A DNA stretch of 64,000 nt from Bolinopsis microptera (Eukaryota; Ctenophora; Tentaculata; Lobata; Bolinopsidae): positions 2,196,028 to 2,260,027 of the forward strand of contig NC_087079.1 of the NCBI RefSeq assembly GCF_026151205.1, written 5' to 3'. Shown piece after piece: positions 34,643 to 57,871 of the stretch. The notes under the pieces are model-generated. The model was not told the origin of the DNA and did no database searches. It saw only the letters and a program-made list of their open reading frames with translations. The first letter of the stretch is position 1; each line of letters opens with the position of its first letter. The translations under genes were made by a program, and so were the position numbers.

Positions 34643-34671
34643 ATGAATAGCAGTTCTCTCGAAATCAGTGT
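34643..34671 (+). CDS. CERK: CERK exon 1 (candidate start)
   Basis: ATG followed by NSSSLEIS and a GTATGT donor at 34672. It ends in phase 2, which fits exon 2. It is chosen because it is the nearest upstream ATG exon with a matching phase. There is no homology support for so short a segment, so the true start could lie elsewhere. Confidence 0.45.
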
Positions 34672-34804
34672 GTATGTAATCAAATCAATCTTATCAACTT
34701 CATCCTAAACAAGAGGAGATAGTTTAGTTGAGATTTATTTTGTTACAATTTATTATAGATAAACTGTAATATTGGGTAAATGCAACTGCTTAATCCCCCT
34801 TTAG

Positions 34805-34893
34805 GCCGAGTGGCTCCTTGCTAAATGGAATATCTCCTCCCACCAAACTTGATATGAGATATTCTTCATCCTCTAGCAGTGGGACCTCCACAT
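34805..34893 (+). CDS. CERK: CERK exon 2
   Basis: A strong acceptor (ATCCCCCTTTAG) precedes a phase-2 start, and a GTGAGC donor follows in phase 1. It encodes a Ser-rich stretch (PSGSLLNGISPP... SSSSSSGTST). N-terminal low-complexity sequence is not conserved in CERK, so support rests on splice signals and phase. Confidence 0.6.
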
Positions 34894-35070
34894 GTGAGCT
34901 TGTTTTATTTCTTAATCAGAAATAGTTAAAATTTGTTTGTATGTAAGCTGAGCAGATAACTCCAATAACAAATAAGTCTAATGTAGTGGAATATTTGATA
35001 TTTTCCTAGCTAGTAGTCGGAATGTCTGGAGCCAAATTTTGTGACAATTTTGATTCACTATAATATATAA

Positions 35071-35410
35071 GTATCTAAGTATCTAACTATCTAACTATCT
35101 AACTATCTAACTATCTAACTATCTAACTATCTACTATCTAACTATCTAACTATCTAACTATCTAACTATCTAACTATCTACTATCTAACTATCTAACTAT
35201 CTAACTATCTAACTATCTAACTATCTAACTATCTAACTATCTAACTATCTAACTATCTAACTATCTAACTATCTAACTATCTAACTATCTAACTATCTAA
35301 CTATCTAACTATCTAACTATCTAACTATCTAACTATCTAAGATCTGACTATCTAACTATCTAAGTAACTAACTATCTAACTATCTAACTATCTAAGATCT
35401 GACTGTCTAA
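35071..35410 (+). repeat. CTAACTAT octamer array just upstream of CERK exon 3
   Basis: About 40 copies of the octamer CTAACTAT, with a few 7-base units and GATCTGACT variants at the exon-proximal end, run to within about 15 bp of the exon 3 acceptor (35422-35423). Each unit contains CTAAC, which fits the metazoan branch-point pattern yUnAy. The array is thus a reiterated candidate branch point. Confidence 0.9.
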
Positions 35411-35423
35411 ACCAAACCCGCAG

Positions 35424-35551
35424 TTGACCACGAGACAGCCACTACAGCCTCAACACCGGCTACTCTGAACTCAGATTATGCAATACCAGTAGTTCCTGGA
35501 CCGAGCAGTTTAGTGACCATATCAGGCATTTCTACCACTCAAACCACCCAG
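35424..35551 (+). CDS. CERK: CERK exon 3
   Basis: Acceptor CCCGCAG, donor CCAG|GTTAAC. Phase 1 to 0, open throughout, encoding a Thr/Ser/Pro-rich segment (DHETATTASTPATLNS...). It belongs to the variable N-terminus. The donor sequence is itself duplicated downstream near 35592. Confidence 0.65.
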
Positions 35552-35630
35552 GTTAACTTAACTAACTTACCAACTAACTAACTAACTAACCAGGTTAACT
35601 TAACTAACTAACTAACTAACTAAGTAAACT
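35545..35630 (+). repeat. duplicated exon 3 donor and CTAA repeat
   Basis: CCAGGTTAACTTAACTAACT occurs at the true donor (35548) and again about 40 bp downstream. The two are separated and followed by runs of (CTAA)n. This is a two-copy version of the junction amplification seen elsewhere in the gene. Confidence 0.75.
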
Positions 35631-35714
35631 CTTATTTAACTGAATTTCGGGAGTCTGGTAGATATTTACCCCCCGGGGGTATATAATAATTTAGACCTTA
35701 TGTCAATATATCAA

Positions 35715-35800
35715 TACTATTGCCCAACTATTACCATTGCCCAACTATTACCATTGCCCAACTATTACCATTGCCCAACTATGCAACTATTAATAATATA
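35715..35800. repeat. 17-bp tandem repeat in CERK intron 3
   Basis: About four copies of CCATTGCCCAACTATTA. It is not adjacent to a splice site. Confidence 0.8.
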
Positions 35801-35890
35801 TAGTTGGCATCGGTATTTCACTTTTTCTGTGCATAATCAAAGAATTTAAGGCCCATTTTGAACTTGATTTCCAATTAAAGAATTAATCAG

Positions 35891-35982
35891 ACATACGTTT
35901 TCGGACCATCGCCGATAGTTACTGTTGACGAAGATGAACTTCAGAAAGAATGTACCGGAATCATGCTGAGAAACGGGAAAAA
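35891..35982 (+). CDS. CERK: CERK exon 4 (start of PH-like region)
   Basis: Acceptor TTAATCAG, donor AAAAA|GTACAC. Phase 0 to 2. It encodes TYVFGPSPIVTVDEDELQ and then ECTGIMLRNGKK, which corresponds to the beginning of the CERK N-terminal lipid-binding/PH-like region. Joining to exon 5 gives NGKKCTDYKL, the position of the conserved Cys. Confidence 0.75.
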
Positions 35983-36405
35983 GTACACCAAGTTTTTCTA
36001 TTTTTTGTTCAAATTATAGTTGTTTATGTCAACAAATGTTCAGTTGATGTTCATAACTACTTAGCATAAATTTATTAGATAGCTAGAAGTATTCATTGAT
36101 AAGATAATGATACTATCTTCATATCTAGTTGGTACATATAATTTGTGATGTTACAACCTTGTGTCAGGTACAAAGTTTCACTCTCACTGTTCTCACTAAC
36201 CTGGGAGAGGGAGAGGAAAGCGAAGCGAATAGGAAAAAGTTCGTCAGAACCATTTTTTTCAATTTGCAATATAATCTTCTTTTATACATTAATTATATCT
36301 ATTTTCAATTAATGTTTTTCAACTGTAAATGTTCCAAATTTGACGATAAAATCTTTTAAAGATGTATCAAAATTAGAGGACCCTAATTTATTAAAACAAT
36401 GCAAG

Positions 36406-36571
36406 ATGTACCGATTACAAGTTAACCCTGACTTATTTAGAAGGACAGAAGAAGTACGAGTTAAAGTTAGAAGACGTGTTGGGAGCCTGCTCTCATCTCA
36501 ACTTTAACTTCAGACACCTATTCAGAAAGGGTCGTGATCTCTTCAAACTTAGAGTTTACACTTACAAAAAA
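36406..36571 (+). CDS. CERK: CERK exon 5 (PH-like region)
   Basis: Phase 2 to 0. It encodes CTDYKLTLTYLEGQKKYELK, LEDVLGACSH and FKLRVYTYKK, matching the pattern of CERK and sphingosine kinase-like N-termini, where a beta-rich fold leads to a VxxxDVxG motif and a (V/H)xYxxK strand. The acceptor (ATGCAAG) has a weak pyrimidine tract. The donor is AAAAAA|GTTGGT. Confidence 0.8.
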
Positions 36572-36699
36572 GTTGGTGATTTAATTCGGTATATATCTCA
36601 ACATTTAATTCATCATATAAACAACATTGGTATTTGTAATTTTGTTAGGGAACTATAGTCTGTACAGCTGTAGTCTGTACAGTGTACACTCTTGAAAAG

Positions 36700-36765
36700 A
36701 CGCTATGATTTTGGTCTTAACAATGATTTCGCTCGATTTTGGTCTTAACAATGATTTCGCTCTGA
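36700..36765 (+). repeat. 31-bp direct duplication in CERK intron 5
   Basis: GATTTTGGTCTTAACAATG followed by ATTTCGCTC occurs twice in tandem directly before the tRNA-like element. Confidence 0.75.
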
Positions 36766-36771
36766 GAATCA

Positions 36772-36920: not shown

Positions 36921-36957
36921 CATACATGTTACATGGCGAGATCTCCATCCAAAAGGA

Positions 36958-37395: not shown

Positions 37396-37531
37396 GATAA
37401 AAATACAACAGAATATAATACACATATTACACATTTTAAAAACTAAGAACGCCATAATTTGATGTTAATTACCTATCTAATATCCAATATATCATCTATT
37501 ATTTGGAAATTCGGATCAATTCATTAATCAG

Positions 37532-37927: not shown

Positions 37928-38056
37928 TGCTACAAAGACCACGCAGAGTCCACGTGTTCGTTAACCCTTTCAGTGGGGAGGGGTTAGCTTGCAAAGTTTA
38001 CAACACTAAAATAGCTCACATATTCCAAATAGCTGGGATTACAACTACTGTTACAG
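37928..38056 (+). CDS. CERK: CERK exon 7 (kinase domain start)
   Basis: Excellent acceptor (CCCCTTATTTCAG). It encodes RVHVFVNPFSGEG, the first nucleotide-binding motif of the DAGK catalytic domain, followed by ACKVYNTKIAHIFQIAGITT. It ends TVTVTE once joined to exon 8. Phase 1 to 1. The last coding bases plus donor, ACTACTGTTACAG|GTAACT, are the seed of the 19-bp array that starts at once. Reading through the donor reaches a stop after seven codons. Confidence 0.93.
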
Positions 38057-41000
38057 GTAACTACTACTGTTACAGGTAACTACTACTGTTACAGGTAACT
38101 ACTACTGTTACAGGTAACTAATACTGTTACAGGTAACTAGTACTGTTACAGGTAACTACTACTGTTACAGGTAACTAATACTGTTACAGGTAACTAGTAC
38201 TGTTACAGGTAACTACTACTGTTACAGGTAACTACTACTGTTACAGGTAACTACTACTGTTACAGGTAACTACTACTGTTACAGGTAACTAGTACTGTTA
38301 CAGGTAACTACTACTGTTACAGGTAACTACTACTGTTACAGGTAACTAGTACTGTTACAGGTAACTACTACTGTTACAGGTAACTACTACTGTTACAGGT
38401 AACTACTACTGTTACAGGTAACTACTACTGTTACAGGTAACTACTACTGTTACAGGTAACTACTACTGTTACAGGTAACTACTACTGTTACAGGTAACTA
38501 CTACTGTTACAGGTAACTACTACTGTTACAGGTAACTACTACTGTTACAGGTAACTACTACTGTTACAGGTAACTACTACTGTTACAGGCAACTACTACT
38601 GTTACAGGTAACTACTACTGTTACAGGTAACTACTACTGTTACAGGTAACTACTACTGTTACAGGCAACTACTACTGTTACAGGTAACTACTACTGTTAC
38701 AGGTAACTACTACTGTTACAGGTAACTAATACTGTTACAGGTAACTAGTACTGTTACAGGTAACTACTACTGTTACAGGTAACTACTACTGTTACAGGTA
38801 ACTACTACTGTTACAGGTAACTACTACTGTTACAGGTAACTACTACTGTTACAGGTAACTACTACTGTTACAGGTAACTACTACTGTTACAGGTAACTAC
38901 TACTGTTACAGGTAACTACTACTGTTACAGGTAACTAGTACTGTTACAGGTAACTAGTACTGTTACAGGTAACTACTACTGTTACAGGTAACTACTACTG
39001 TTACAGGTAACTACTACTGTTACAGGTAACTACTACTGTTACAGGTAACTACTACTGTTACAGGTAACTACTACTGTTACAGGTAACTACTACTGTTACA
39101 GGTAACTACTACTGTTACAGGTAACTACTACTGTTACAGGTAACTACTACTGTTACAGGTAACTACTACTGTTACAGGTAACTACTACTGTTACAGGTAA
39201 CTACTACTGTTACAGGTAACTACTACTGTTACAGGTAACTACTACTGTTACAGGTAACTACTACTGTTACAGGTAACTACTACTGTTACAGGTAACTACT
39301 ACTGTTACAGGTAACTACTACTGTTACAGGTAACTACTACTGTTACAGGTAACTACTACTGTTACAGGTAACTACTACTGTTACAGGTAACTACTACTGT
39401 TACAGGTAACTAGTACTGTTACAGGTAACTACTACTGTTACAGGTAACTACTACTGTTACAGGTAACTACTACTGTTACAGGTAACTACTACTGTTACAG
39501 GTAACTACTACTGTTACAGGTAACTACTACTGTTACAGGTAACTACTACTGTTACAGGTAACTACTACTGTTACAGGTAACTACTACTGTTACAGGTAAC
39601 TACTACTGTTACAGGTAACTACTACTGTTACAGGTAACTACTACTGTTACAGGTAACTACTACTGTTACAGGTAACTACTACTGTTACAGGTAACTACTA
39701 CTGTTACAGGTAACTACTACTGTTACAGGTAACTACTACTGTTACAGGTAACTACTACTGTTACAGGTAACTACTACTGTTACAGGTAACTACTACTGTT
39801 ACAGGTAACTACTACTGTTACAGGTAACTACTACTGTTACAGGTAACTACTACTGTTACAGGTAACTACTACTGTTACAGGTAACTACTACTGTTACAGG
39901 TAACTACTACTGTTACAGGTAACTACTACTGTTACAGGTAACTACTACTGTTACAGGTAACTACTACTGTTACAGGTAACTACTACTGTTACAGGTAACT
40001 ACTACTGTTACAGGTAACTACTACTGTTACAGGTAACTACTACTGTTACAGGTAACTACTACTGTTACAGGTAACTACTACTGTTACAGGTAACTACTAC
40101 TGTTACAGGTAACTACTACTGTTACAGGTAACTACTACTGTTACAGGTAACTACTACTGTTACAGGTAACTACTACTGTTACAGGTAACTACTACTGTTA
40201 CAGGTAACTACTACTGTTACAGGTAACTACTACTGTTACAGGTAACTACTACTGTTACAGGTAACTACTACTGTTACAGGTAACTACTACTGTTACAGGT
40301 AACTACTACTGTTACAGGTAACTACTACTGTTACAGGTAACTACTACTGTTACAGGTAACTACTACTGTTACAGGTAACTACTACTGTTACAGGTAACTA
40401 CTACTGTTACAGGTAACTACTACTGTTACAGGTAACTACTACTGTTACAGGTAACTACTACTGTTACAGGTAACTACTACTGTTACAGGTAACTACTACT
40501 GTTACAGGTAACTACTACTGTTACAGGTAACTACTACTGTTACAGGTAACTACTACTGTTACAGGTAACTACTACTGTTACAGGTAACTACTACTGTTAC
40601 AGGTAACTACTACTGTTACAGGTAACTACTACTGTTACAGGTAACTACTACTGTTACAGGTAACTACTACTGTTACAGGTAACTACTACTGTTACAGGTA
40701 ACTACTACTGTTACAGGTAACTACTACTGTTACAGGTAACTACTACTGTTACAGGTAACTACTACTGTTACAGGTAACTACTACTGTTACAGGTAACTAC
40801 TACTGTTACAGGTAACTACTACTGTTACAGGTAACTACTACTGTTACAGGTAACTACTACTGTTACAGGTAACTACTACTGTTACAGGTAACTACTACTG
40901 TTACAGGTAACTACTACTGTTACAGGTAACTACTACTGTTACAGGTAACTACTACTGTTACAGGTAACTACTACTGTTACAGGTAACTACTACTGTTACA

Positions 41001-42980
41001 GGTAACTACTACTGTTACAGGTAACTACTACTGTTACAGGTAACTACTACTGTTACAGGTAACTACTACTGTTACAGGTAACTACTACTGTTACAGGTAA
41101 CTACTACTGTTACAGGTAACTACTACTGTTACAGGTAACTACTACTGTTACAGGTAACTACTACTGTTACAGGTAACTACTACTGTTACAGGTAACTACT
41201 ACTGTTACAGGTAACTACTACTGTTACAGGTAACTACTACTGTTACAGGTAACTACTACTGTTACAGGTAACTACTACTGTTACAGGTAACTACTACTGT
41301 TACAGGTAACTACTACTGTTACAGGTAACTACTACTGTTACAGGTAACTACTACTGTTACAGGTAACTACTACTGTTACAGGTAACTACTACTGTTACAG
41401 GTAACTACTACTGTTACAGGTAACTACTACTGTTACAGGTAACTACTACTGTTACAGGTAACTACTACTGTTACAGGTAACTACTACTGTTACAGGTAAC
41501 TACTACTGTTACAGGTAACTACTACTGTTACAGGTAACTACTACTGTTACAGGTAACTACTACTGTTACAGGTAACTACTACTGTTACAGGTAACTACTA
41601 CTGTTACAGGTAACTACTACTGTTACAGGTAACTACTACTGTTACAGGTAACTACTACTGTTACAGGTAACTACTACTGTTGCAGGTAACTACTACTGTT
41701 GCAGGTAACTACTACTGTTGCAGGTAACTACTACTGTTGCAGGTAACTACTACTGTTGCAGGTAACTACTACTGTTGCAGGTAACTACTACTGTTACAGG
41801 TAACTACTACTGTTACAGGTAACTACTACTGTTACAGGTAACTACTACTGTTGCAGGTAACTACTACTGTTGCAGGTAACTACTACTGTTGCAGGTAACT
41901 ACTACTGTTGCAGGTAACTACTACTGTTGCAGGTAACTACTACTGTTACAGGTAACTACTACTGTTACAGGTAACTACTACTGTTACAGGTAACTACTAC
42001 TGTTACAGGTAACTACTACTGTTACAGGTAACTACTACTGTTACAGGTAACTACTACTGTTACAGGTAACTACTACTGTTACAGGTAACTACTACTGTTA
42101 CAGGTAACTACTACTGTTACAGGTAACTACTACTGTTACAGGTAACTACTACTGTTACAGGTAACTACTACTGTTACAGGTAACTACTACTGTTACAGGT
42201 AACTACTACTGTTACAGGTAACTACTACTGTTACAGGTAACTACTACTGTTACAGGTAACTACTACTGTTACAGGTAACTACTACTGTTACAGGTAACTA
42301 CTACTGTTACAGGTAACTACTACTGTTACAGGTAACTACTACTGTTACAGGTAACTACTACTGTTACAGGTAACTACTACTGTTACAGGTAACTACTACT
42401 GTTACAGGTAACTACTACTGTTACAGGTAACTACTACTGTTACAGGTAACTACTACTGTTACAGGTAACTACTACTGTTACAGGTAACTACTACTGTTAC
42501 AGGTAACTACTACTGTTACAGGTAACTACTACTGTTACAGGTAACTACTACTGTTACAGGTAACTACTACTGTTACAGGTAACTACTACTGTTACAGGTA
42601 ACTACTACTGTTACAGGTAACTACTACTGTTACAGGTAACTACTACTGTTACAGGTAACTACTACTGTTACAGGTAACTACTACTGTTACAGGTAACTAC
42701 TACTGTTACAGGTAACTACTACTGTTACAGGTAACTACTACTGTTACAGGTAACTACTACTGTTACAGGTAACTACTACTGTTACAGGTAACTACTACTG
42801 TTACAGGTAACTACTACTGTTACAGGTAACTACTACTGTTACAGGTAACTACTACTGTTACAGGTAACTACTACTGTTACAGGTAACTACTACTGTTACA
42901 GGTAACTACTACTGTTACAGGTAACTACTACTGTTACAGGTAACTACTACTGTAACAGGTAACTACTACTGTTACAGGTA
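38044..42980 (+). repeat. 19-bp splice-donor satellite, 259 periods
   Basis: Unit GTTACAGGTAACTACTACT. From the true donor (exon end G at 38056) to the equivalent base of the last copy (42977) is 4921 bp, exactly 259 x 19, so there is no net length change across the array. Each unit carries CAG|GTAACT, matching the U1 consensus at eight of nine positions, and TTACAG|G, which resembles an acceptor. GTTAC-AG-GTAAC is an inverted repeat. Early units vary (ACTAAT, ACTAGT, GGCAAC). A TTGCAG variant occupies two blocks at about 41680-41945. The array lies immediately inside CERK intron 7. Confidence 0.97.
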
Positions 42981-43675
42981 ATATTGCCAGATTACATGAG
43001 CTTCTTTGTATAAATACACAGGGTTGTGGTAAGCTGCTTTACCACAAAACACACATTATTATGCAATCCTACAGAACTTAACAAGTTGTTAACAGGAAAT
43101 CATCCCTGGCTTACACAACCAATCTCCTGCATCCCATTGGCTAGTTGTCATGGTTACAGTGTTCCATTGGCTAGCTTTTGAGCTTGGTTACTTCTGATTG
43201 TGTGTTTCAGTAGTAGTACTGGGAGATGTGTGTACTTTGTGTAGTCTACATGGGTACAGACACACATCTTTATCTTTAATCTTTTCAAACAGTACATAAT
43301 TATACAGGATTAAGTTATTATAAACAAACCCAGATATAATAAAAGGAGAAAACCAATAGTGTACCCCATGTATCCAGTACCCAGTATAACAAAAACCAAA
43401 TTATGTATAGGAGCCACCAAAACAAGGTGCAGTAATAAATACCACACCCGCAATAACAAGGGGCTGTAGCAAATAAAGTACAATAAAGAAAACAATCTCG
43501 CATCCTAACTACTGATAACTACCGGGGGTCCCTAATGGTTGAGAAGTACAACAGAAAAAGGTCACAATATTATAAGTTTGTGTTTTGCGCAGCTAATTTA
43601 GGCAAATAATAAGTTTATTTTAAAGTTAGTTAAGATTTAGTTCTTCGTATAGTATTTTAAGTGAGTATCATTGTT
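42981..43675. other. CERK intron 7 / 3' flank of the minus-strand gene
   Basis: No exon recognised. The hydrophobic minus-strand frames near 43310-43503 lack any domain and lie beyond the stop codon of the minus-strand gene. AATAAA on the minus strand at 43619-43614 is a likely polyadenylation signal, 57-62 nt after that stop. Confidence 0.5.
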
Positions 43676-43833
43676 TTATTCCTGATTAGCGTCGACTGCT
43701 TCCTTTCCATTAGATTTCTTTCTTATGCACATCAGTGTGAAATATATTGTGAAGAGTAAGTTTCCAAGTATAGAAATTATCCCTGCAACTATCCATCCTA
43801 CTGGCAGACCGTTCTTCACTGCGACAGAATCTT
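43676..43833 (-). CDS. membrane protein exon 7: TM helix and cytoplasmic tail
   Basis: Acceptor AACTTTTTAG, phase 1 start, stop TAA at 43676. It encodes EDSVAVKNGLP, a ~25-residue hydrophobic helix (VGWIVAGIISILGNLLF...) closed by IRKK (stop-transfer), and a tail ending EAVDANQE. It has no obvious signalling motif. Confidence 0.85.
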
Positions 43834-43935
43834 CTAAAAAGTTATTTATCAAACTATCGTAATTATTGATATCATAACTTTAGCAGTTCTAATTGTCCCT
43901 TGTATTACAATCCGAGAGCAGTGCTGTTTTTAGTT

Positions 43936-46020
43936 AAGATACTAAAACTGACCGGGCTCGCTACAAAGTGGTCTGCTTAGTTAAGATACTAAAACTGACC
44001 GGGCTCGCTACAAAGTGGTCTGCTTGTTAGTTAAGATACTAAAACTAACCGGGCTCGCTACAAAGTGGTCTGCTTGTTAGTTAAGATACTAAAACTAACC
44101 GGGCTCGCTACAAAGTGGTCTGCTTGTTAGTTAAGATACTAAAACTAACCGGGCTCGCTACAAAGTGGTCTGCTTAGTTAAGATACTAAAACTAACCGGG
44201 CTCGCTACAAAGTGGTCTGCTTAGTTAAGATACTAAAACTAACCGGGCTCGCTACAAAGTGGTCTGCTTAGTTAAGATACTAAAACTAACCGGGCTCGCT
44301 ACAAATTGGTCTGCTTAGTTAAGATACTAAAACTAACCGGGCTCGCTACAAAGTGGTCTGCTTGTTAGTTAAGATACTAAAACTAACCGGGCTCGCTACA
44401 AAGTGGTCTGCTTAGTTAAGATACTAAAACTAACCGGGCTCGCTACAAAGTGGTCTGCTTAGTTAAGATACTAAAACTAACCGGGCTCGCTACAAAGTGG
44501 TCTGCTTAGTTAAGATACTAAAACTAACCGGGCTCGCTACAAAGTGGTCTGCTTAGTTAAGATACTAAAACTAACCGGGCTCGCTACAAAGTGGTCTGCT
44601 TAGTTAAGATACTAAAACTAACCGGGCTCGCTACAAAGTGGTCTGCTTAGTTAAGATACTAAAACTAACCGGGCTCGCTACAAAGTGGTCTGCTTAGTTA
44701 AGATACTAAAACTAACCGGGCTCGCTACAAAGTGGTCTGCTTAGTTAAGATACTAAAACTAACCGGGCTCGCTACAAAGTGGTCTGCTTAGTTAAGAAAC
44801 TAAAACTAACCGGGCTCGCTACAAAGTGGTCTGCTTGTTAGTTAAGATACTAAAACTAACCGGGCTCGCTACAAAGTGGTCTGCTTAGTTAAGAAACTAA
44901 AACTAACCGGGCTCGCTACAAAGTGGTCTGCTTAGTTAAGATACTAAAACTAACCGGGCTCGCTACAAAGTGGTCTGCTTAGTTAAGATACTAAAACTAA
45001 CCGGGCTCGCTACAAAGTGGTCTGCTTAGTTAAGATACTAAAACTAACCGGGCTCGCTACAAAGTGGTCTGCTTAGTTAAGATACTAAAACTAACCGGGC
45101 TCGCTACAAAGTGGTCTGCTTAGTTAAGATACTAAAACTAACCGGGCTCGCTACAAAGTGGTCTGCTTTAGTTAAGATACTAAAACTAACCGGGCTCGCT
45201 ACAAAGTGGTCTGCTTGTTAGTTAAGATACTAAAACTAACCGGGCTCGCTACAAAGTGGTCTGCTTAGTTAAGATACTAAAACTAACCGGGCTCGCTACA
45301 AAGTGGTCTGCTTAGTTAAGATACTAAAACTAACCGGGCTCACTACAAAGTGGTCTGCTTAGTTAAGATACTAAAACTAACCGGGCTCGCTACAAAGTGG
45401 TCTGCTTGTTAGTTAAGATACTAAAACTAACCGGGCTCGCTACAAAGTGGTCTGCTTAGTTAAGATACTAAAACTAACCGGGCTCGCTACAAAGTGGTCT
45501 GCTTGTTAGTTAAGATACTAAAACTAACCGGGCTCGCTACAAAGTGGTCTGCTTGTTAGTTAAGATTCTAAAACTGACCGGGCTCGCTACAAAGTGGTCT
45601 GCTTGTTAGTTAGGATACTAAAACTAACCGGGCTCGCTACAAAGTGGTCTGCTTAGTTAAGATACTAAAACTAACCGGGCTCGCTACAAAGTGGTCTGCT
45701 TAGTTAAGATACTAAAACTAACCGGGCTCGCTACAAAGTGGTCTGCTTGTTAGTTAAGATACTAAAACTAACCGGGCTCGCTACAAAGTGGTCTGCTTAG
45801 TTAAGATACTAAAACTAACCGGGCTCGCTACAAAGTGGTCTGCTTAGTTAAGATACTAAAACTAACCGGGCTCGCTACAAAGTGGTCTGCTTAGTTAAGA
45901 TACTAAAACTAACCGGGCTCGCTACAAAGTGGTCTGCTTGTTAGTTAAGATACTAAAACTAACCGGGCTCGCTACAAAGTGGTCTGCTTGTTAGTTAAGA
46001 TACTAAAACTAACCGGGCTC
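43936..46020 (-). repeat. 47/50-bp sushi-exon donor satellite, 43 periods
   Basis: On the minus strand each unit reads as the end of the sushi exon (codons for RPLCSEP), the donor CCCG|GTTAGT and some intron. From the equivalent base of the first copy (43953) to the true exon end (46014) is 2061 bp. This equals 43 x 47 plus 13 units with an extra GTT plus one unit with one extra base. There are thus 44 donor copies including the real one. The array fills the intron side of exon 6. A single diverged version of the same unit sits at the donor of exon 5 (about 46425-46465), which shows the ancestral single-copy state. Confidence 0.96.
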
Positions 46021-46208
46021 GCTACAAAGTGGTCTGCTTGAATAAGCGAAATGCCCGTCTTTGCTGCAGGTCACCTTGTTATCTCCACTTTGTTCATATC
46101 CCTCTTCGCAGCTCAGATTCAAAACCGTTCCAACATTTACTGGAAACTCTTTATCTGCTTCCATGTGCTTACCTACCTTCCCGATTTCTTTTATTCCGTA
46201 ACATTTCG
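46014..46208 (-). CDS. membrane protein exon 6: sushi/CCP domain
   Basis: 195 nt, phase 1-1, acceptor TTTTATCCTCAG, donor CCCG|GTTAGT. It encodes one complete complement-control-protein module with four cysteines (AKCYG, LSCEEGY, VTCSKDG, PLCSEP), the conserved GTVLNLSCEEGYEQSGD pattern and a ~60-residue length. The Trp usual before the last Cys is replaced (GHFAYSS). It is a close paralogue of exon 5, from tandem exon duplication. Confidence 0.9.
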
Positions 46209-46441
46209 CTGAGGATAAAATATAAAATGTAAAATATAGATAATTTATCACCGATATGATTGAAGTAGTTTTTAGTTCGTATAAAATGCTGCATCAGAAT
46301 GAAAAGCACGCTGTTAAAAGTGAAACAACATCACATTGCTGTGAGTATGAGTATATGATCATAATTATCAATATAATATCCACTGGATTATCCACTGGTG
46401 GTTTTTTAGAAATAACTTTTGGTTAAGTTACTGAAACTAAC

Positions 46442-46651
46442 CGATCCGACTACAAATTGGTTTGCTTGAAGAATTGTAAGCGAATTCGTTGTCTTTCATG
46501 CAGGTCACCTTACTATCTCCACTTAGTTCATATCCCTCTTCGCAGCTCAGATTCAAAACCGTTCCAGCGTCTACAGGAAACTCTTTATCTGCTTCCAAGT
46601 TCTTCCAATTGGAATTTAAATTCCAATCGGAATTTAAACCGGAGCATTCCA
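46442..46651 (-). CDS. membrane protein exon 5: sushi/CCP domain
   Basis: 210 nt, phase 1-1, acceptor TTTCCCTCAG, donor ATCG|GTTAGT. Four cysteines in sushi spacing (MECSG, LSCEEGY, VTCMKD, PICSRI). The middle (GTVLNLSCEEGY) is nearly identical to that of exon 6. A short Asn/Leu repeat (NSDWNLNSNW) is present between the first two cysteines. Confidence 0.88.
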
Positions 46652-46904
46652 CTGAGGGAAATGGGAAATAGTGATCACCAATTTATAAATTGATACAGAC
46701 AAACGAATTTCAAAATTTTCCATTTGACACTTTTGTCATGTTTATTGTCTCTCTAAGTCCATATCTCTGCCAGTTTTAGGCTTTAAAAACTTCCACGAGT
46801 TCTACAATACGTAAAATCGATCATTTTGGGCTCAGTTTGGGCTCAGTTATTATTTCTTTACCTGAAAAAATGACTAACTCTGGTTCTATCTCGGTTCAAA
46901 CTAA

Positions 46905-47026
46905 TTGATTTTAAAACTGATTGATTTTAAAACTAATTGATTTTAAAACTAATTGATTTTAAAACTAATTGATTTTAAAACTAATCGATTTTAAAACTAA
47001 TTGATTTTAAAACTAATTGATTTTAT
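46905..47026 (-). repeat. 16-bp AT-rich array abutting the exon 4 donor
   Basis: About eight copies of CTAATTGATTTTAAAA (+ strand). On the minus strand the array begins within about 6 nt after the donor GTGAAT of exon 4. It is another array on the intron side of a splice site, though here the unit does not include the donor itself. Confidence 0.85.
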
Positions 47027-47030
47027 TCAC

Positions 47031-47618
47031 CTGCTTTTATACCCTTTCTATAATAATCTGAGGCCGTGTCGAAGGCGAAGCTGATTAGCGCAGTCTGTCT
47101 CAGGTTCCATGCTTTATTCCAGTCACGTCTCGGTACACGACAGTATTCGTCTAGGAGCACATTAGCTACTTTCTCATTGTTGCAGTGGATGACTAGCCTG
47201 GTCGATCTCTCCGCCTCCTCACGGGTACCGGCAGTATAACGGTAGAAGGTAATCCTCCAAACTTTTTCTGTAGCGGAGGGTAGGGTAACTGTGAAATTAG
47301 TTTTAGAGCTCAAGGAAGGACTGCACTCAAGGATGTTGTACGAAGGAGACGGGGTGAAGTTGATAATGACACCTCCCGATGGGGAGGTTCTCCAGCCGTA
47401 GGGTGACATCGGGTATTTACTGTAGAAGTTCACCTTTATCCTTTCATCTCTTTCCCCTCCCACTACACTATTCGTCATTATTTCAAGTGAATTATTATTT
47501 GAAGGTCGGAAGTGGATCTTCTCGTTACGTGTTACTGGAGTCCAGCCTGTTGTTGTTAGCTTTGTGAATCTTGTTAAATATATCTTACTAACGGGAATAT
47601 TGATTGAACTTTGTTTTT
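47031..47618 (-). CDS. membrane protein exon 4: uncharacterised extracellular domain
   Basis: A ~196-residue open exon ending in the donor GCAG|GTGAAT, phase 1. The acceptor is uncertain: TTGTTAG|AA gives phase 1 (start 47618) and GTGCAG|G gives phase 2 (start 47632); both have poor pyrimidine tracts. Alternating hydrophobic strands suggest a beta-sandwich. Distinctive stretches are VWRITFYRYT, RLVIHCNNEKVANVLLDEYC and SFAFDTASDYYRKG. Three cysteines and one NFT sequon in each half fit an extracellular location. I do not recognise the family. Confidence 0.7.
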
Positions 47619-47639
47619 CTAACAATATCATCCTGCACT

Positions 47640-49110
47640 GTTCCCTAATCTAGTATCAACTGATAACGAAATAAGATGTTGTGAGTAGGTCACTATAAAG
47701 TATAAAGTAGTGACTGTTAGTCAGCATCGTTTAACTTTGTTAAAAACATGTTTAAATGTCACTAAATTACATGTAATTCCGGATCGGAACATTATTTATA
47801 AGTCGCATGGTTGAAATGTTTCTTGGGTAGAATTTGTATTGATCCCGTTTGTTGTGACAAGGGAAAGGCTCCTTTCCTGATAAGAGATTACAAATTACAA
47901 ATACCCAAGAAACACTAAATTACACTAAATAACACTAAATAACACTAATTACACTAAATTACACTAACCACCAGGACAGGAGAGAGGATTCGTTCCGTTC
48001 TGAGCTTTAATCCTTAGTATCAGGCAAGCAACCAAGAACAGAATCATCGCGCCTTTGTAATGTTCTAGTTAATTCCAGAAAATGTTGATGATTTTATGTT
48101 ATTATCAGACTCGGGGAGCACCTGTAAATGGCATTGTAACAAAAAGTTAAACAGTCATTTAGGGTGTAGAAATTAACAGCAGGCTGATTTGAGGTTCAAT
48201 TAGAAAATATAACCACTATTACTAGTAAGTAATAACTGTAAGAAGCTAGGCAGTAAGCTGCAGCCAAACGTCCAATATTTAACCAAATTTGCGCTCTGCA
48301 CGGGACTTTCCCTTTTTCAAAGGGGAGCCCCCCCCCCCCCACCCAACCCCCACCCCCCCTCCTCACCCCCGGCCCTCTGACTACGCTATTTGTACTATCA
48401 CAACTATCAAAACAGAGTAAGATGGCAAAGTCAAAAAACACAGAAAACTAGTAACCAACACCACGAAACAGTCATAGTAGCAACTGAGTTAGGAGGTTTC
48501 CTTGACATCACACTCATATTCCAAATATGCACATATTAATTATCATCACTTCTGGGTAACATCTTATCGTCTAATTATTGCAGAGTACATATATCCGAGA
48601 GTAAACTACTCACTAGCTAGCCACCTTATTATCACGCGTATGCCGTATATAGAACTGAATAGTGAATATTGCACCTCTGGCAACGACTGCTTGGTGTAAA
48701 CATTATCATCAAGACCTACTCAGAGGTCAGACTGCACAACGACAATACAATTCAAAAACTGAAGAACAACCACAGTTCATGTTTAAATTGTGTATGTTCA
48801 TTAATATTCGCTTGGCTGAAACTTGACAAATAAAATAATGTTGGCTTTGTTGAGCTTAGCCAGTACTACAATAGATTATTTTGAACAAAAGTAGATTCCC
48901 TAAAAGGAATGAGAACGATCATGCCCTAGAAAGTTAAACGTTGTCAAACAGATGCTGAGTCAAATAATAGATACAGAAATTAGTCGATTATCAATCATTT
49001 TGACGGAAGGTTCTTCAGGCAGTATTTCACTGTGTTCTAACTGAAGATTTACACGACACAATTAGTAGTTGTTTATTAAAGTTGTTTATTATTTTACCCC
49101 TGAGTTGACA
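47640..49110. other. intronic for both genes, no exon recognised
   Basis: AT-rich sequence, with an ACACTAAAT repeat near 47920-47970 and a poly-C tract near 48328-48370 that creates a Gly-rich minus frame. No supportable exon on either strand. Confidence 0.45.
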
Positions 49111-49111
49111 C

Positions 49112-51542
49112 TGTAATTTCAGTGACTGACAGGCAGGAGATATGTTAACACTAAGTGTAATTTCAGTGACTGACAGGCAGGAGATATGTTAACACTAAGT
49201 GTAATTTCAGTGACTGACAGGCAGGAGATATGTTAACACTAAGTGTAATTTCAGTGACTGACAGGCAGGAGATATGTTAACACTAAGTGTAATTTCAGTG
49301 ACTGACAGGCAGGAGATATGTTAACACTAAGTGTAATTTCAGTGACTGACAGGCAGGAGATATGTTAACACTAAGTGTAATTTCAGTGACTGACAGGCAG
49401 GAGATATGTTAACACTAAGTGTAATTTCAGTGACTGACACGCAGGAGATATGTTAACACTAAGTGTAATTTCAGTGACTGACACGCAGGAGATATGTTAA
49501 CACTAAGTGTAATTTCAGTGACTGACAGGCAGGAGATATGTTAACACTAAGTGTAATTTCAGTGACTGACAGGCAGGAGATATGTTAACACTAAGTGTAA
49601 TTTCAGTGACTGACAGGCAGGAGATATGTTAAAACTAAGTGTAATTTCAGTGACTGACACGCAGGAGATATGTTAACACTAAGTGTAATTTCAGTGACTG
49701 ACACGCAGGAGATATGTTAACACTAAGTGTAATTTCAGTGACTGACAGGCAGGAGATATGTTAACACTAAGTGTAATTTCAGTGACTGACAGGCAGGAGA
49801 TATGTTAACACTAAGTGTAATTTCAGTGACTGACAGGCAGGAGATATGTTAACACTAAGTGTAATTTCAGTGACTGACAGGCAGGAGATATGTTAACACT
49901 AAGTGTAATTTCAGTGACTGACAGGCAGGAGATATGTTAACACTAAGTGTAATTTCAGTGACTGACAGGCAGGAGATATGTTAACACTAAGTGTAATTTC
50001 AGTGACTGACAGGCAGGAGATATGTTAACACTAAGTGTAATTTCAGTGACTGACAGGCAGGAGATATGTTAACACTAAGTGTAATTTCAGTGACTGACAG
50101 GCAGGAGATATGTTAACACTAAGTGTAATTTCAGTGACTGACAGGCTGGAGATATGTTAACACTAAGTGTAATTTCAGTGACTGACAGGCAGGAGATATG
50201 TTAACACTAAGTGTAATTTCAGTGACTGACAGGCAGGAGATATGTTAACACTAAGTGTAATTTCAGTGACTGACAGGCAGGAGATATGTTAACACTAAGT
50301 GTAATTTCAGTGACTGACAGGCAGGAGATATGTTAACACTAAGTGTAATTTCAGTGACTGACAGGCTGGAGATATGTTAACACTAAGTGTAATTTCAGTG
50401 ACTGACAGGCAGGAGATATGTTAACACTAAGTGTAATTTCAGTGACTGACAGGCAGGAGATATGTTAACACTAAGTGTAATTTCAGTGACTGACAGGCAG
50501 GAGATATGTTAACACTAAGTGTAATTTCAGTGACTGACAGGCAGGAGATATGTTAACACTAAGTGTAATTTCAGTGACTGAACGTCTGGAGATATGTTAA
50601 CACTAAGTGTAATTTCAGTGACTGACAGGCAGGAGATATGTTAACACTAAGTGTAATTTCAGTGACTGACAGGCAGGAGATATGTTAACACTAAGTGTAA
50701 TTTCAGTGACTGACAGGCAGGAGATATGTTAACACTAAGTGTAATTTCAGTGACTGAACGTCTGGAGATATGTTAACACTAAGTGTAATTTCAGTGACTG
50801 ACAGGCAGGAGATATGTTAACACTAAGTGTAATTTCAGTGACTGACAGGCAGGAGATATGTTAACACTAAGTGTAATTTCAGTGACTGACAGGCAGGAGA
50901 TATTTTAACACTAAGTGTAATTTCAGTGACTGACAGGCTGGAGATATGTTAACACTAAGTGTAATTTCAGTGACTGACAGGCAGGAGATATGTTAACACT
51001 AAGTGTAATTTCAGTGACTGACAGGCAGGAGATATGTTAACACTAAGTGTAATTTCAGTGACTGACAGGCAGGAGATATGTTAACACTAAGTGTAATTTC
51101 AGTGACTGACAGGCAGGAGATATGTTAACACTAAGTGTAATTTCAGTGACTGACAGGCAGGAGATATGTTAACACTAAGTGTAATTTCAGTGACTGACAG
51201 GCAGGAGATATGTTAACACTAAGTGTAATTTCAGTGACTGACAGGCAGGAGATATGTTAACACTAAGTGTAATTTCAGTGACTGACAGGCTGGAGATATG
51301 TTAACACTAAGTGTAATTTCAGTGACTGACACGCAGGAGATATGTTAACACTAAGTGTAATTTCAGTGACTGACAGGCAGGAGATATGTTAACACTAAGT
51401 GTAATTTCAGTGACTGACACGCTGGAGATATGTTAACACTAAGTGTAATTTCAGTGACTGACACGCAGGAGATATGTTAACACTAAGTGTAATTTCAGTG
51501 ACTGACAGGCTGGAGATATGTTAACACTAAGTGTAATTTCAG
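49112..51542 (+). repeat. 44-bp splice-acceptor satellite, block 1 (55 periods)
   Basis: The unit begins TGTAATTTCAG|TGACTGA and continues with CAGGCAGGAGATATGTTAAC, ending ACTAAG. AG positions from 49121 to 51541 are exactly 55 x 44 bp apart. TGTAATTTCAG|TGACTGA and GCAGGAGATAT copy the acceptor and first coding bases of CERK exon 8. The TTAAC inside each unit, about 20 nt before the next AG, can serve as a branch point, so every unit is a complete candidate 3' splice site. Variants GGCTGG, CACGC and AACGTCTGG recur in interspersed positions. Confidence 0.96.
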
Positions 51543-51798
51543 TAGACAGTTTTTGGGTTTTTCCAAATAGTTTCTGATTATTCTGATTTGCGACAAATGA
51601 TATTGCACTGTTAGGATAAACGACGTTTCAAAGTAACAACTTCTTATTCATGCTGACAAAATTGGTAAATATGTGAGAAAACTGTCTCATAAAATTTATT
51701 AATCAAAAATGGCTAAACGACAACAAATTGTTCAAATACTCGACTAAAATTAGAATAAAAATCTATATATATACAACACTACTCGATCTGCTATTCAC
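51543..51798. other. unique 256-bp interruption of the acceptor satellite
   Basis: AT-rich unrelated sequence separating the two array blocks. No terminal repeats are visible. It could be an insertion, or older intron sequence around which amplification occurred twice. Confidence 0.6.
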
Positions 51799-52337
51799 TG
51801 TAATTTCAGTGACTGACAGGCAGGAGATATGTTAACACTAAGTGTAATTTCAGTGACTGACACGCAGGAGATATGTTAACACTAAGTGTAATTTCAGTGA
51901 CTGACACGCAGGAGATATGTTAACACTAAGTGTAATTTCAGTGACTGACAGGCTGGAGATATGTTAACACTAAGTGTAATTTCAGTGACTGACAGGCAGG
52001 AGATATGTTAACACTAAGTGTAATTTCAGTGACTGACAGGCTGGAGATATGTTAACACTAAGTGTAATTTCAGTGACTGACAGGCAGGAGATATGTTAAC
52101 ACTAAGTGTAATTTCAGTGACTGACAGGCAGGAGATATGTTAACACTAAGTGTAATTTCAGTGACTGACACGCAGGAGATATGTTAACACTAAGTGTAAT
52201 TTCAGTGACTGACAGGCTGGAGATATGTTAACACTAAGTGTAATTTCAGTGACTGACACGCTGGAGATATGTTAACACTAAGTGTAATTTCAGTGACTGA
52301 CAGGCTGGAGATATGTTAACACTAAGTGTAATTTCAG
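51799..52337 (+). repeat. 44-bp splice-acceptor satellite, block 2 (12 periods)
   Basis: AG positions run from 51808 to 52336, exactly 12 x 44 bp, and the last AG is the true acceptor of CERK exon 8. With block 1 there are 69 copies of the acceptor, counting the real one. Confidence 0.96.
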
Positions 52338-52401
52338 TGACTGAACGGGCTGGACACGCAGGAGATATCGTCAGAGAAATGGATTTAAACTCAACTGATG
52401 C
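52338..52401 (+). CDS. CERK: CERK exon 8
   Basis: 64 nt, phase 1 to 2, donor GC|GTTAGT. It encodes TERAGHAGDIVREMDLNSTD, equivalent to the TExxxHA(x)D segment of lipid kinases between the NPxxG and GGDG motifs. The junction with exon 9 reads STDAIVCIGGDG. Its acceptor is the final member of the 44-bp array. Confidence 0.92.
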
Positions 52402-54164: not shown

Positions 54165-54229
54165 GTATTAAATAGCGTAATTTCATATATAATATGTATT
54201 AAATAATTTATTTTGAATTATAATTTAAG

Positions 54230-54396
54230 TACCCAGGCGACGTGTTAAAGTCGAGTGAGGAGTACAGGTGGATGGGACCCACACGTTACGACTTCTCCGG
54301 GTTTAAAACTATTGTAAATCTCAAGTCTTACAAGGGACGGATAGAGTTTAAAGAAGGACTCACTTCCGGGTCTCCTCAAGATATTTGTAAACACGG
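54230..54396 (+). CDS. CERK: CERK exon 12 (CERK-specific region)
   Basis: It encodes YPGDVLKSSEEYRWMGPTRY, then DFSGFKTIVNL and KSYKGRIEF, diagnostic of ceramide kinase rather than sphingosine or diacylglycerol kinases. It ends DICKHG at the donor GG|GTAAGA, phase 2. The acceptor is either TTTAAG at 54229 or, in phase 1, ACCCAG at 54236; the latter would let exon 10 splice directly to it in frame. The last ~15 coding bases plus donor seed the poly-C array. Confidence 0.93.
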
Positions 54397-54894
54397 GTAA
54401 GAAACAACCCCCCCCCCCCCCCCCCCCGACATTTGTAAACACGGGTAAGAAACAACCCCCCCACCCCCCCGACATTTGTAAACACGGGTAAGAAACAACC
54501 CCCCCCCCCCCCCCCCCGACATTTGTAAACACGGGTACGAAACAACCCCCCCCCCCCCCCGACATTTGTAAACACGGGTAAGAAACAACCCCCCCACCCC
54601 CCCGACATTTGTAAACACGGGTAAGAAACAACCCCCCCCCCCCCCCCCCCGACATTTGTAAACACGGGTAAGAAACAACCCCCCCACCCCCCCGACATTT
54701 GTAAACACGGGTAAGAAACAACCCCCCCACCCCCCCCCCCCCCCCCCCCCACCCCCCGACATTTGTAAACACGGGTAAGAAACAACCCCCCCCCCCCCCC
54801 CCGACATTTGTAAACACGGGTAAGAAACAACCCCCCCCCCCCCCCCCCCCGACATTTGTAAACACGGGTAAGAAACAACCCCCCCCCCCCCCCA
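54379..54894 (+). repeat. poly-C-spaced splice-donor array, 11 copies
   Basis: ATTTGTAAACACGGGTAAGA, i.e. the exon 12 end and its donor, occurs 11 times including the real one. Copies are separated by AACAA and C-runs of about 12-27 (some with one or two A). Copies 2-11 start GAC where the exon has GAT, so they derive from one another. One copy has GTACGA in place of GTAAGA. The G-rich complement could form G-quadruplexes and accounts for the long Gly-rich minus-strand frames, which are not genes. Confidence 0.96.
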
Positions 54895-55563: not shown

Positions 55564-55686
55564 GAATTAATTAAATATATCTAAGTTAACTTTTAAATTT
55601 GTATATTTATTAGCCAGGGTTCTGACTTAATTAAAGATATCTAAGTTAACTTTTAAATTTGTATATTTATTAGCCAGGGTTCTGAG
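55564..55686. repeat. ~61-bp tandem duplication
   Basis: Two near-identical copies containing ATCTAAGTTAACTTTTAAAT and TTAGCCAGGGTTCTGA, about 55 bp from the donor of minus-strand exon 3, on its intron side. Confidence 0.85.
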
Positions 55687-55739
55687 TATCAATGCTTGCT
55701 CTGCGCCTCTACAACCACCTGATTCCACGTGCTACTTAC

Positions 55740-56047
55740 CAACACATTCCTTGTGAAACATATTTCCGAAAAGCATTACTTCTTCCAGTTGGAGATATTT
55801 AGATGAAGCTGCAGTGACCTCCACCTCTTTGGCAAACATACAAATCTTATCGAAGATATATTTCTGCGACGCTTTCTCCACATATTCTATCTTTCCGATC
55901 AAGCTACCTTCTACAAATAGCTTGACACCGTCAATTCTGCCCATCATGTGGTTACTTCGGCCGTAGATGGTGGCTGAATGGATGAAGTAGCATTTGGGAA
56001 GCGTTAGTTTCCACCAGCCTCCTTTTGAGTTAGCCAGAGCAAATTTC
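55740..56047 (-). CDS. membrane protein exon 3: discoidin/F-lectin-like domain, second part
   Basis: 308 nt, phase 2 to 1, acceptor AATCCTTCAG, donor GTTG|GTAAGT. It encodes KFALANSKGGWWKLTLPKC, then HSATIYGRSNHMMGRIDGVK and VTAASSKYLQLEEVMLFG. The WWKLxLPxxY...A.IYGR......RIDGV pattern and the final xxLxLxEVxxFG strand are those of galactose-binding-like beta-sandwich domains (F5/8C, fucolectin). The key Cys pair of classical fucolectins is not evident, so carbohydrate binding is uncertain. Confidence 0.85.
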
Positions 56048-56177
56048 CTGAAGGATTATTAATTTAAGAAATATTAAGGTGGCTGAGTTAATCATTAAAT
56101 ACCGTGAACTGTCTGAAGTTTTATCTACCCCACAGTAAACGTCAGTAAAGCAATGATAAGATTCAAAGCACACTTAC

Positions 56178-56304
56178 CCGTTTTGTGAAATTGTGATTCC
56201 ATCTATTGCATATTGAGCGAATCTGAACTTTGATCCATCATCTGATATTTGAGTATCAATCTGACTGGCTGTTCCATGTCTGGCTATGTTCTCCCAATTA
56301 GTTC
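56178..56304 (-). CDS. membrane protein exon 2: discoidin/F-lectin-like domain, first part
   Basis: 127 nt, phase 1 to 2, donor CGG|GTAAGT. It encodes TNWENIARHGTASQID and AQYAIDGITISQNG, matching the N-terminal NxAxxGxAxQ...AxxAxDG signature of discoidin/F-type lectin domains. The acceptor (CTCGATCAG) has a weak pyrimidine tract, but phases on both sides fit. Confidence 0.85.
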
Positions 56305-56615
56305 CTGATCGAGATATTCAATTTACTTGTGTAGATTTAACATCAATTCATAGTAAAAACTGGTATAATGTGCTATCGGAATTGCAGGGTCTACTAGGGT
56401 CCTTATTTGCATACATTTTCATCGTATTATAGTCTGAAAGAAAAGTCATCTAAAAGCTAAAAATGAGAAGAGCTGCGAGACCACGTGGTTAAGTAGACCT
56501 CGTCAGGGTTACCTACCATCGCAAGATTTCCAGTTTACCAGGCCCTCATAGTTACTTTTCTTTATGATAACTATTTTATGAATAAATAAACAATAAAATA
56601 AATCTTTACTCTTAC

Positions 56616-56700
56616 CTCCCTGGCAAGTACAGTAAGCGAGGTTTATTGAATTAATCACCAGAGAGACAACAAGAATTCGGGCAAGGCTCAACCAAAACAT
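56616..56700 (-). CDS. membrane protein exon 1: signal peptide
   Basis: It starts at ATG 56700 (MFWLSLARILVVSLVINS) and encodes a typical signal peptide, with cleavage likely around LAYC, then CTCQG. Donor GGAG|GTAAGA, phase 1, completing a Gly codon with exon 2. The frame is open upstream to an ATG at 56757, but that would place about 19 extra polar residues before the hydrophobic core. Confidence 0.85.
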
Positions 56701-57388
56701 TGACAATCTGTTCTTTAGACTTTTAGAGAAAAGTTTATTTACTATCAGTAAAAGCAACTCGGTAGTAACCTGGAAATAAACCTTAGATGAAGCAATGAAG
56801 CAGTTCCTGGAGCAGTTCCACGCACGTTTTAAAACAACGATTCTATTGGCTGCACTCAGGTCATGTGTTCAATTCTGGGTGAGACTGGAGCGGTCTTTAG
56901 CCCTCTATAGTATTATAGAGGGCTAAAGACTTAACAGTATTGCATCAGACTAGCTTAGCCTAGTGAGTAGTGATGTGCTGTAAATTGTGTATACAATACT
57001 ATACGACCCTGTATACTATATATCCCACCTGTTCTTCTTCTGAGTGTCAATTCTCTCTCAAATTTAGTCACCTGTCGCTGAATAGTCTTGAGATGAATAA
57101 TTGTCCTGCTTTTCCTTAATTTTCTCCTTTATAAAATCCAAAAAAAAGTTCACATTTGGATACGAGTCTTGAAACACCCTGTATGAGAGCTTGCTAATGT
57201 TGTGGATACTAATGGTAATTCAGCGATACTCCCAGACGTTATACACAAGCCATAACAGAGTAAGAGCGACCTGAGTCCCTTCCTTCTTCGGGGCTTCCTT
57301 CAACAACTAAAGATATAGCTAATAGTAATACTAATACACGTGTGTAGTGGGTATAAATAAACTAACACTCTGCACTGCCTCCCCACAG
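56701..57388. other. promoter side of the minus-strand gene inside CERK intron 13
   Basis: No exon recognised. At about 56894-56927 there is a hairpin (CTTTAGCCCTCTATAGTATTATAGAGGGCTAAAG, written as one inverted pair of CTTTAGCCCTCTATA arms). A mariner-type end (TGAAACACCCTGTA) lies at 57171-57184. Specific promoter elements are not identifiable. Confidence 0.5.
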
Positions 57389-57505
57389 GGACTCTCACCA
57401 GCTGCTCACATAGGGGACGGGTGTTTAGATCTTATAGTCCACAGACGGGCCAGTCCGCTCAGATACCTCAAATACCTCGCAAATACCGCATTCTTCAGTA
57501 AACCA
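57389..57505 (+). CDS. CERK: CERK exon 14
   Basis: Strong acceptor (CTGCCTCCCCACAG), donor CCA|GTGAGT, phase 0 to 0. It encodes GLSPAAHIGDGCLDLIVHRR and RYLKYLANTAFFSKP. The GLSPAAHxGDGxxDL motif is the C-terminal catalytic-fold hallmark of lipid kinases, in its ceramide kinase form. Confidence 0.95.
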
Positions 57506-57679
57506 GTGAGTAACAACCCAGTTGTCAGTTTATTGGTTTAGAACTTTCGTTTATTTACCAATCAAATGTGGTTTGGTTGTCACTATTTGACTCCGATTTA
57601 TTTCATGACTGGGTGCTCAATAGTTAACACAGAAGTACATTATAAATACCAGTTCCTGCTCCTAACCCACCCTCCTCAG

Positions 57680-57871
57680 TTTACAGGAGACTTAGTGGAC
57701 GTGCACAGAGTAACGGAGTTCATGTTTAGTTCCACCTGCTCACATGACAAGGACACGGAATGTGGAAACTGCTCCACGTGGAACATAGACGGGGAGCTGT
57801 ACCACCAACATTCCATACACGTGAAGGTACACAGACAGGGTATCACATTGTTGGCATGCCAACCCGGCTAG
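57680..57871 (+). CDS. CERK: CERK exon 15 (C-terminus)
   Basis: Acceptor CACCCTCCTCAG, phase 0, stop TAG. It encodes DLVDVHRVTEFMFSS, a Cys-containing insert (CSHDKDTECGNC), NIDGELYHQHSIHVKVHRQG and ITLLACQPG. The W-NxDGE and following V-V-R strand are conserved at CERK C-termini. AATAAA occurs at 58044-58049. Confidence 0.94.
   Translation, partial: FTGDLVDVHRVTEFMFSSTCSHDKDTECGNCSTWNIDGELYHQHSIHVKVHRQGITLLACQPG

Follow-up and report, generated by a model that had tools for sequence, protein, structure and literature searches.

The stretch examined here, a window of 64,000 nucleotides (nt) from the ctenophore Bolinopsis microptera (contig NC_087079.1, positions 2,196,028 to 2,260,027; C8:2196028-2260027 in the 264.65 Mb, 232-contig genome that we analysed), contains a ceramide kinase (CERK) gene in which long tandem arrays copy exon edges together with their splice sites. 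There is no N within the window. Used as a query, the CERK sequence had a full-length match of 99% to the NCBI protein P0001, 'ceramide kinase-like isoform X2 [Bolinopsis microptera]'. When P0001 was mapped exactly, 14 of the 15 junctions had only one GT-AG solution; the last junction (57505/57680; here and below a slash marks a splice junction) was read by hand. Intron 8 of this gene is 14,281 nt long and carries a second gene on the other strand. The exons of this nested gene were defined with P0121, a 385-residue protein from a contig of 1,417 bases, whose only difference from the window is an H to Q change in the sushi exon. In Hormiphora, 1,654 host genes with nested intronic genes are reported (PMC8527503). 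Such genes are common in ctenophores, so that the nesting inside CERK is in itself ordinary.

Four tandem arrays span exon-intron junctions

Arrays were called by Tandem Repeats Finder (TRF), by direct reading of the letters and by splitting into units (Table 1). In arrays A to D, exon edge and splice site or intron are carried in each unit as one continuous piece, and all four arrays overlap exactly mapped junctions. The gene models rebuilt from P0001 and P0121 thus confirm what an earlier reading of the sequence, hereafter the original prediction, had proposed for these four arrays. Both types of boundary are represented, with donors in A, C and D and an acceptor in B. Two details are corrected: the exons that had been numbered 7, 8 and 12 are exons 8, 9 and 13, and the sushi exon, rightly placed on the opposite strand, belongs to a gene nested within CERK intron 8. 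The arrays extend into the intron only, as had been claimed. Their units (19, 44, 43-64 and 47/50 bp for A, B, C and D) are unrelated in sequence, which bears out the view that a repeated process, and not one repeat family, is involved.

The unit of array A consists of 13 exonic nt and GTAACT, and the final copy continues into GTAATATTG, apparently the ancestral start of the intron. Array B falls into 69 pieces, each starting with TGTAATTTCAG, the last of which is the true acceptor. Its unit is composed of TGTAATTTCAG, 21 exonic nt and GTTAACACTAAG; the exonic part is the first 31 nt of the exon minus ACGGGCTGGA, a 10-bp deletion, and GTTAACACTAAG resembles GTTGACAC, located just upstream of the first B copy. 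One piece of B measures 267 nt because it holds an insertion, and for this reason TRF gives 73.4 copies; this piece lies at approximately 51532-51798, near the exon side of B, and its insertion is unrelated AT-rich sequence. In array C, ATTTGTAAACACGG/GTAAGAAACAA is followed by poly-C and GAC, 14 nt of the unit being exonic. Array D units hold 26-27 exonic and 21-23 intronic nt; the array has 50-bp units at either end, and its 47-bp units are mostly internal. Homology at the joints, with flanks picked by eye, amounts to 2 nt in A, 0 in B, C and D, and 4 in each of two probable acceptor-spanning arrays found elsewhere (L005 and L013, described below), which fits ordinary local tandem duplication and not a shared sequence signal.

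Table 1. Genes, exons and tandem arrays of the CERK locus (positions within the window; a slash marks the splice junction)
Feature	Position	Strand	Description	Basis
CERK (ceramide kinase) gene	34643..57871	+	16 coding exons, 15 GT-AG introns	exact mapping of P0001
CERK exon 8	37928..38056	+	donor ACAG/GTAACT is the first copy of array A	P0001 mapping
CERK exon 9	52338..52401	+	begins in the last copy of array B	P0001 mapping
CERK exon 13	54237..54396	+	donor CACGG/GTAAGA is the first copy of array C	P0001 mapping
Nested gene	43676..48047	-	five-exon CUB/sushi/transmembrane gene inside CERK intron 8	P0121
Nested gene, exons 1 to 5	48047-47969, 47546-47031, 46651-46442, 46208-46014, 43833-43676	-		P0121
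Array A	38044..42981	+	19-bp unit ACTACTGTTACAG/GTAACT, about 260 copies; spans exon 8 donor	TRF, unit splitting
Array B	49112..52344	+	44-bp unit; spans exon 9 acceptor (TTTCAG/TGACTGA)	TRF, unit splitting
Array C	54383..54893	+	unit 43-64 bp, 11 copies; spans exon 13 donor	TRF, unit splitting
Array D	43930..46039	-	47/50-bp unit, 44 copies; spans nested exon 4 donor (GCCCG/GTTAGT)	TRF, unit splitting
Array F	35548..35627	+	42 bp x 1.9, 4 exonic nt; spans CERK exon 3 donor (CCAG/GTTAAC)	TRF, P0001 mapping
Array E	46898..47025	-	16 bp x 8, wholly intronic; from +6 of nested exon 2 donor, adjoins but does not span	
Array G	47911..47967	-	10-bp-based, intronic; from +2 of nested exon 1 donor, adjoins but does not span	
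Sister sushi exon 3	46442..46651	-	donor GATCG/GTTAGTTTCAGTAACTTAACC, no array	P0121 mapping, reading

Smaller arrays lie in the same locus. Array F, absent from the original prediction, is a fifth junction-spanning case, with two copies. In arrays E and G the junction is not copied. The sister sushi exon 3 has a donor context nearly that of the array D exon and carries no array, and, judged from its sequence, it is a natural single-copy control for D.

The exon-side copy is the probable splice site

The used splice site had been claimed to be the outermost, exon-side copy of each array. For array D this is shown by P0121, which reads ...SSRPLCSEP/EDSVAV... and so joins nested exon 4 (46208-46014) to exon 5 (from 43833); the P0121 contig is too short to contain the 2,180-nt intron of array D. 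Use of the exon-side copy at A, B and C is suggested by the NCBI protein P0001 and by relatives that read through, the ctenophore-like proteins P0003 and P0004, from short contigs, which run straight across the A/B junction (ITTT.TVTERAGHA). Inner donors of A, C and D, or earlier acceptors of B, lead by reading to in-frame stops, again as claimed. Because any other choice breaks the reading frame, only genes with a working exon-side copy can be observed. The outermost-copy pattern is therefore a survival filter, and no special choosing mechanism is needed to explain it. Exon definition is the likely way by which the spliceosome finds that copy.

A partial second copy of the locus

A further, incomplete copy of the CERK locus, hereafter the second copy, is found some 64 kb upstream, at C8:2166903-2177904 (L027, L028), with exons 1-8, an 8-bp array, F, A, a damaged D and nested exons. 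By segment it is 94-99.5% identical to window positions 34370-46120; it has unrelated sequence on both sides and is indel-rich towards its end. It may be an allele, a duplication or an error of assembly. Arrays A, D and F and the 8-bp array stand at the same places in both locus copies with other copy numbers: TRF counts 250.8 copies of A in the second copy and 259.9 in the window, and for the 8-bp array 60.9 and 43.9, respectively. The D unit, at up to 3 mismatches, has 51 matches, all on C8, 44 of them in the window and 7 in the second copy. A two-unit A pattern has 496 matches, on one strand only, a total about as expected from both A arrays; among the approximately 100 matches listed, all are in the second copy. 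A segment of about 460 bp in the window (36923-37383) is without counterpart in the second copy and is likely an insertion.

Arrays elsewhere in the genome

Expectations were taken from a null in which seeds are placed uniformly per intron and arrays are collapsed, an array being at the 'intron end' when it spans a junction or lies within 20 nt of it. A blind set was drawn from Pfam myosin and chaperonin hits, with 44 candidate introns of which 37 were resolved; its introns are short, with a median of 269 nt. These 37 introns hold 15 arrays, none of which spans a junction (1.09 expected) and four of which lie within 20 nt (1.45 expected). When three weak-site introns, and two arrays with them, are set aside, the remaining 34 introns hold 13 arrays, again with none spanning (1.01 expected) and with four at an intron end against 2.39 expected (P=0.19).

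Twenty further 10-kb stretches of C8 were sampled, 18 at spaced positions and 2 flanking the window (L004 includes 2,500 N); tandem repeats make up 1.0-18.5% of each stretch. In another ctenophore genome they make up 13% (PMC8527503). When 77 array units from the C8 stretches (unit 15-110 bp) were scored as donors and acceptors against random segments, in a test that had no positive control, splice motifs were not in excess (5/77 units for donors and 4/77 for acceptors at p<0.05); because both L005 7967-8419 and L013 7847-8072 went unflagged, the test is insensitive. These two arrays were found by a codon-bias screen, the other top rows of which were mostly coding repeats or weak; the row from L001, for example, was a repeat within a 14-3-3 exon. 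L013 7847-8072 (54 bp x 4.1) and L005 8419-7967 (50 bp x 9.1, with a TACTAAC branch-site-like word in each unit) are probable acceptor-spanning arrays, their exons having been recognised by an open frame and splice sites. Neither exon has a match in Pfam or PDB, and the L005 exon is absent from all 39 relatives of the receptor open reading frame (ORF) that neighbours it in L005. Junction spanning in these cases, 2 of the 77 arrays in the 20 stretches, is probable but not proven. By eye, and beside unresolved exons, an array at L022 2951-2994 (19 bp x 2.2) overlaps a myosin donor by 1 nt and an array at L021 5883 starts at +2; both were left out of the blind counts.

Spanning arrays occur elsewhere, then, at a low rate, which samples of this low power cannot distinguish from chance. 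The original prediction had turned on a genome-wide enrichment of arrays at splice junctions; the blind introns and the 20 stretches sample the genome for it, and establish neither enrichment nor its absence.

Some arrays in these samples end close to an acceptor. One at L030:3848-5675 (30 bp x 61), in the intron of a chaperonin (PF00118) gene, ends 19 nt before the acceptor, and its units each carry an ACTAAC word and a pyrimidine tract. Another at L013:8324-8441 (29 bp x 4.1, TACTAAC in each unit) ends about 5 nt before a probable acceptor, and a 1.9-kb array with an 8-bp unit (CAAGTAAC, minus strand) at L022:3550-5440 stops some twelve bases short of a probable myosin acceptor. In the window itself, outside CERK, an ORF at 6293-6661 matches the papain family (PF00112) above the curated cut-off, and a 39-bp repeat at 30706-31680, with one frame open by eye (KRVAEAERVLEEQ-like), is probably a coding coiled-coil repeat.

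Origin of the arrays

The arrays are probably minisatellites of the type that in amphioxus, where tandem repeats spanning exon-intron boundaries have been described, is called 'mirages' (PMC3087553, PMC3902484), founded by chance local duplications that straddled junctions and were later expanded. According to this model, a local tandem duplication of approximately 16-55 bp, with a match of 0-4 nt at its joint, would fall by chance across an exon-intron border, so that the duplicated exon edge would land in the intron and the mRNA would remain intact while the exon-side site is used. Such an event may be nearly neutral at a junction, whereas the same event within an exon would not be. Repeat turnover, by unequal exchange and slippage, would then expand and homogenise the intronic copies, to approximately 260 in one case, and the exon-side copy would be kept in use because the alternatives frameshift or add a stop. 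Since introns are short (the median given above), a junction forms a sizeable share of the tolerated target. Consistently, the end copies on the exon and intron side retain ancestral flanks, as seen in A, which runs out into GTAATATTG, and in the 50-bp units of D. In favour of this model, too, minisatellites are common in the genome, matches of the D unit are confined to this locus and its second copy, the sister sushi exon 3 carries no array, and none of the 13 arrays in the blind introns spans a junction.

Several results weigh against such a chance origin. At CERK, 4 of 13 arrays span a junction where 1.10 are expected (P=0.014, per-intron null), and 7 of 13 are at intron ends where 2.11 are expected (P=0.0007). 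The long intron that holds A and B gave them a spanning chance of only 2% and 5%. When the CERK, nested-gene and blind sets are pooled, 14 of 29 arrays are at intron ends against 5.81 expected (P=9.5e-5), an excess driven by CERK and the nested gene. In the second locus copy, moreover, no position of the intronic A copies varies more than the donor T, which is lost in 39 of the 241 scored (37 C, 1 A, 1 G); selection against decoy donors could be the cause, as could drift or a poor assembly. The P values of the locus are optimistic and post hoc, because the locus was picked for its arrays. Other comparisons gave the following values: the nested gene has 1 of 3 arrays spanning (0.80 expected, P=0.66) and 3 of 3 at intron ends (1.31 expected, P=0.048), a cruder whole-locus null expects 2.40 spanning arrays where 5 of 16 are seen (P=0.062), and the pooled sets have 5 of 29 spanning against 2.91 (P=0.14). 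Arrays F, C and D, the introns of which were short before expansion, had spanning chances of 28%, 26% and 56%.

Splice sites may instead be hot spots of duplication or expansion, through R-loops at exon ends, fork collisions or the splicing machinery, a process aimed at these sites, of the kind that the original prediction named among possible causes. Every array of the locus that has at least 10 copies of a unit no shorter than 15 bp, four in all, does span a junction, the pooled excess at intron ends points in the same direction, and spanning arrays are met elsewhere at acceptors (L005, L013) and at a donor (L022). This excess, however, comes from a locus selected for its arrays, while the blind introns yield no spanning array and no significant surplus at their ends, splice motifs are not in excess among the 77 units, and the sister sushi exon has nearly the same donor and remains arrayless. 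Weak as these tests are, they lend targeting no support, and we consider it unlikely. One may speculate that ctenophore intron ends are true hot spots, at which junction duplications seed minisatellites and introns grow outward from their splice sites, leaving hundreds of decoys that look functional and have to be ignored by the spliceosome; the arrays of branch points and of pyrimidine tracts found close to junctions would also belong to this unlikely scheme. If it were true, ctenophores would serve as a natural experiment on how exon definition works and how introns grow.

A function in splicing is very improbable. Decoy U1 sites might slow the removal of intron 8, or this intron might be removed stepwise by recursive splicing, given that the A unit is a joined 3' and 5' site (TTACAG/GTAACT), that splicing from copy to copy would not alter the mRNA, and that splice dinucleotides are mostly kept in the window (the donor T is changed in 2 of the 259 scored A copies and the AG in 0 of 67 B copies). 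Homogenisation alone accounts for this conservation, the GT losses in the second copy run counter to it, a step of 19 nt leaves no room for an intron, the four arrays use unlike signals, and two arrayless sites of the same genes are spliced too. It is more improbable still that the arrays mark the birth of introns by tandem genomic duplication, with inner AG/GT copies becoming new splice sites, as was proposed for the amphioxus mirages (PMC3087553) and for human exon-intron boundary repeats (PMC2812944). The mark of such gain, a duplicated segment at both intron ends, was not seen in introns 8 and 13 and nested intron 4, the other ends of which are, by reading, non-repeat sequence unrelated to the units of A, B, C and D; A and B share one intron and yet have unrelated units, and intron 8 contains a whole nested gene. 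Hardly credible, finally, is an assembly artefact that inflated a few copies into long arrays. The second copy, with its unrelated flanks and the indels at one end, does suggest a region that is hard to assemble, but A, D, F and the 8-bp array stand at the same places in both copies, variant patterns are ordered and flanks intact, and the window is without any N.

Relation to known repeats

Repeats of the mirage type are already known; what is new is that they occur in a ctenophore, cluster in one gene and reach an extreme copy number. With this, a phenomenon that was named in cephalochordates extends, in far more extreme form, to a very distant animal lineage, and to our knowledge the copy number looks like a record. 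A donor placed before approximately 260 near-identical donors, and an acceptor that comes last in a row of 69, amount to natural experiments in splice-site choice. Arrays of this kind also provide a simple route for intron growth and for turnover of intron-end sequence, one that can be counted in well-annotated ctenophore genomes. No mirage-type case in ctenophores appeared in search listings of the open-licence PMC literature.

The original prediction knew of no named class for such arrays, but amphioxus mirages have been described in Adh3, the globins BflGb6 and BflGb9, PGBD5 and troponin C, with units of 10-72 bp in Adh3 and approximately 150-160 bp in the globins, and with mRNA reported as normal (PMC3087553, PMC3902484). 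The Adh3 mirages are from Canestro et al. 2002, cited here second-hand. The BflGb6 mirage has 6 and 3 units in two haplotypes; the globin authors regarded the mechanism as unclear and proposed intron gain from such repeats (PMC3087553). Like these mirages, the arrays described here occur at 5' and 3' boundaries, have unrelated units of sizes that fit the minisatellite range, and carry splice signals in their copies. Copy number varies between haplotypes in amphioxus; here A and the 8-bp array differ in copy number between the two locus copies, which may or may not be alleles. Unlike the mirages of cephalochordates, these arrays have a ctenophore host, four of them lie in one locus, and their copies number approximately 260, 69, 44 and 11, against the 6 and 3 units of BflGb6.

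In recursive (ratchet) splice sites a 3' site is joined directly to a 5' site, as in the unit of array A; the arrays differ from them in the 19-bp spacing of A and in its want of a long pyrimidine tract. As in the Rogers model of intron gain, the duplicated segment bears AG/GT, but no new intron is visible, the duplicates lying inside an existing intron. Human genes of segmental duplications contain internal tandem repeats, with a mean unit of 30 bp, that are likewise minisatellites at exon-intron boundaries (PMC2812944). These human repeats average approximately four units and are often retained in the mRNA or create new introns, whereas the arrays of the CERK locus are probably removed whole.

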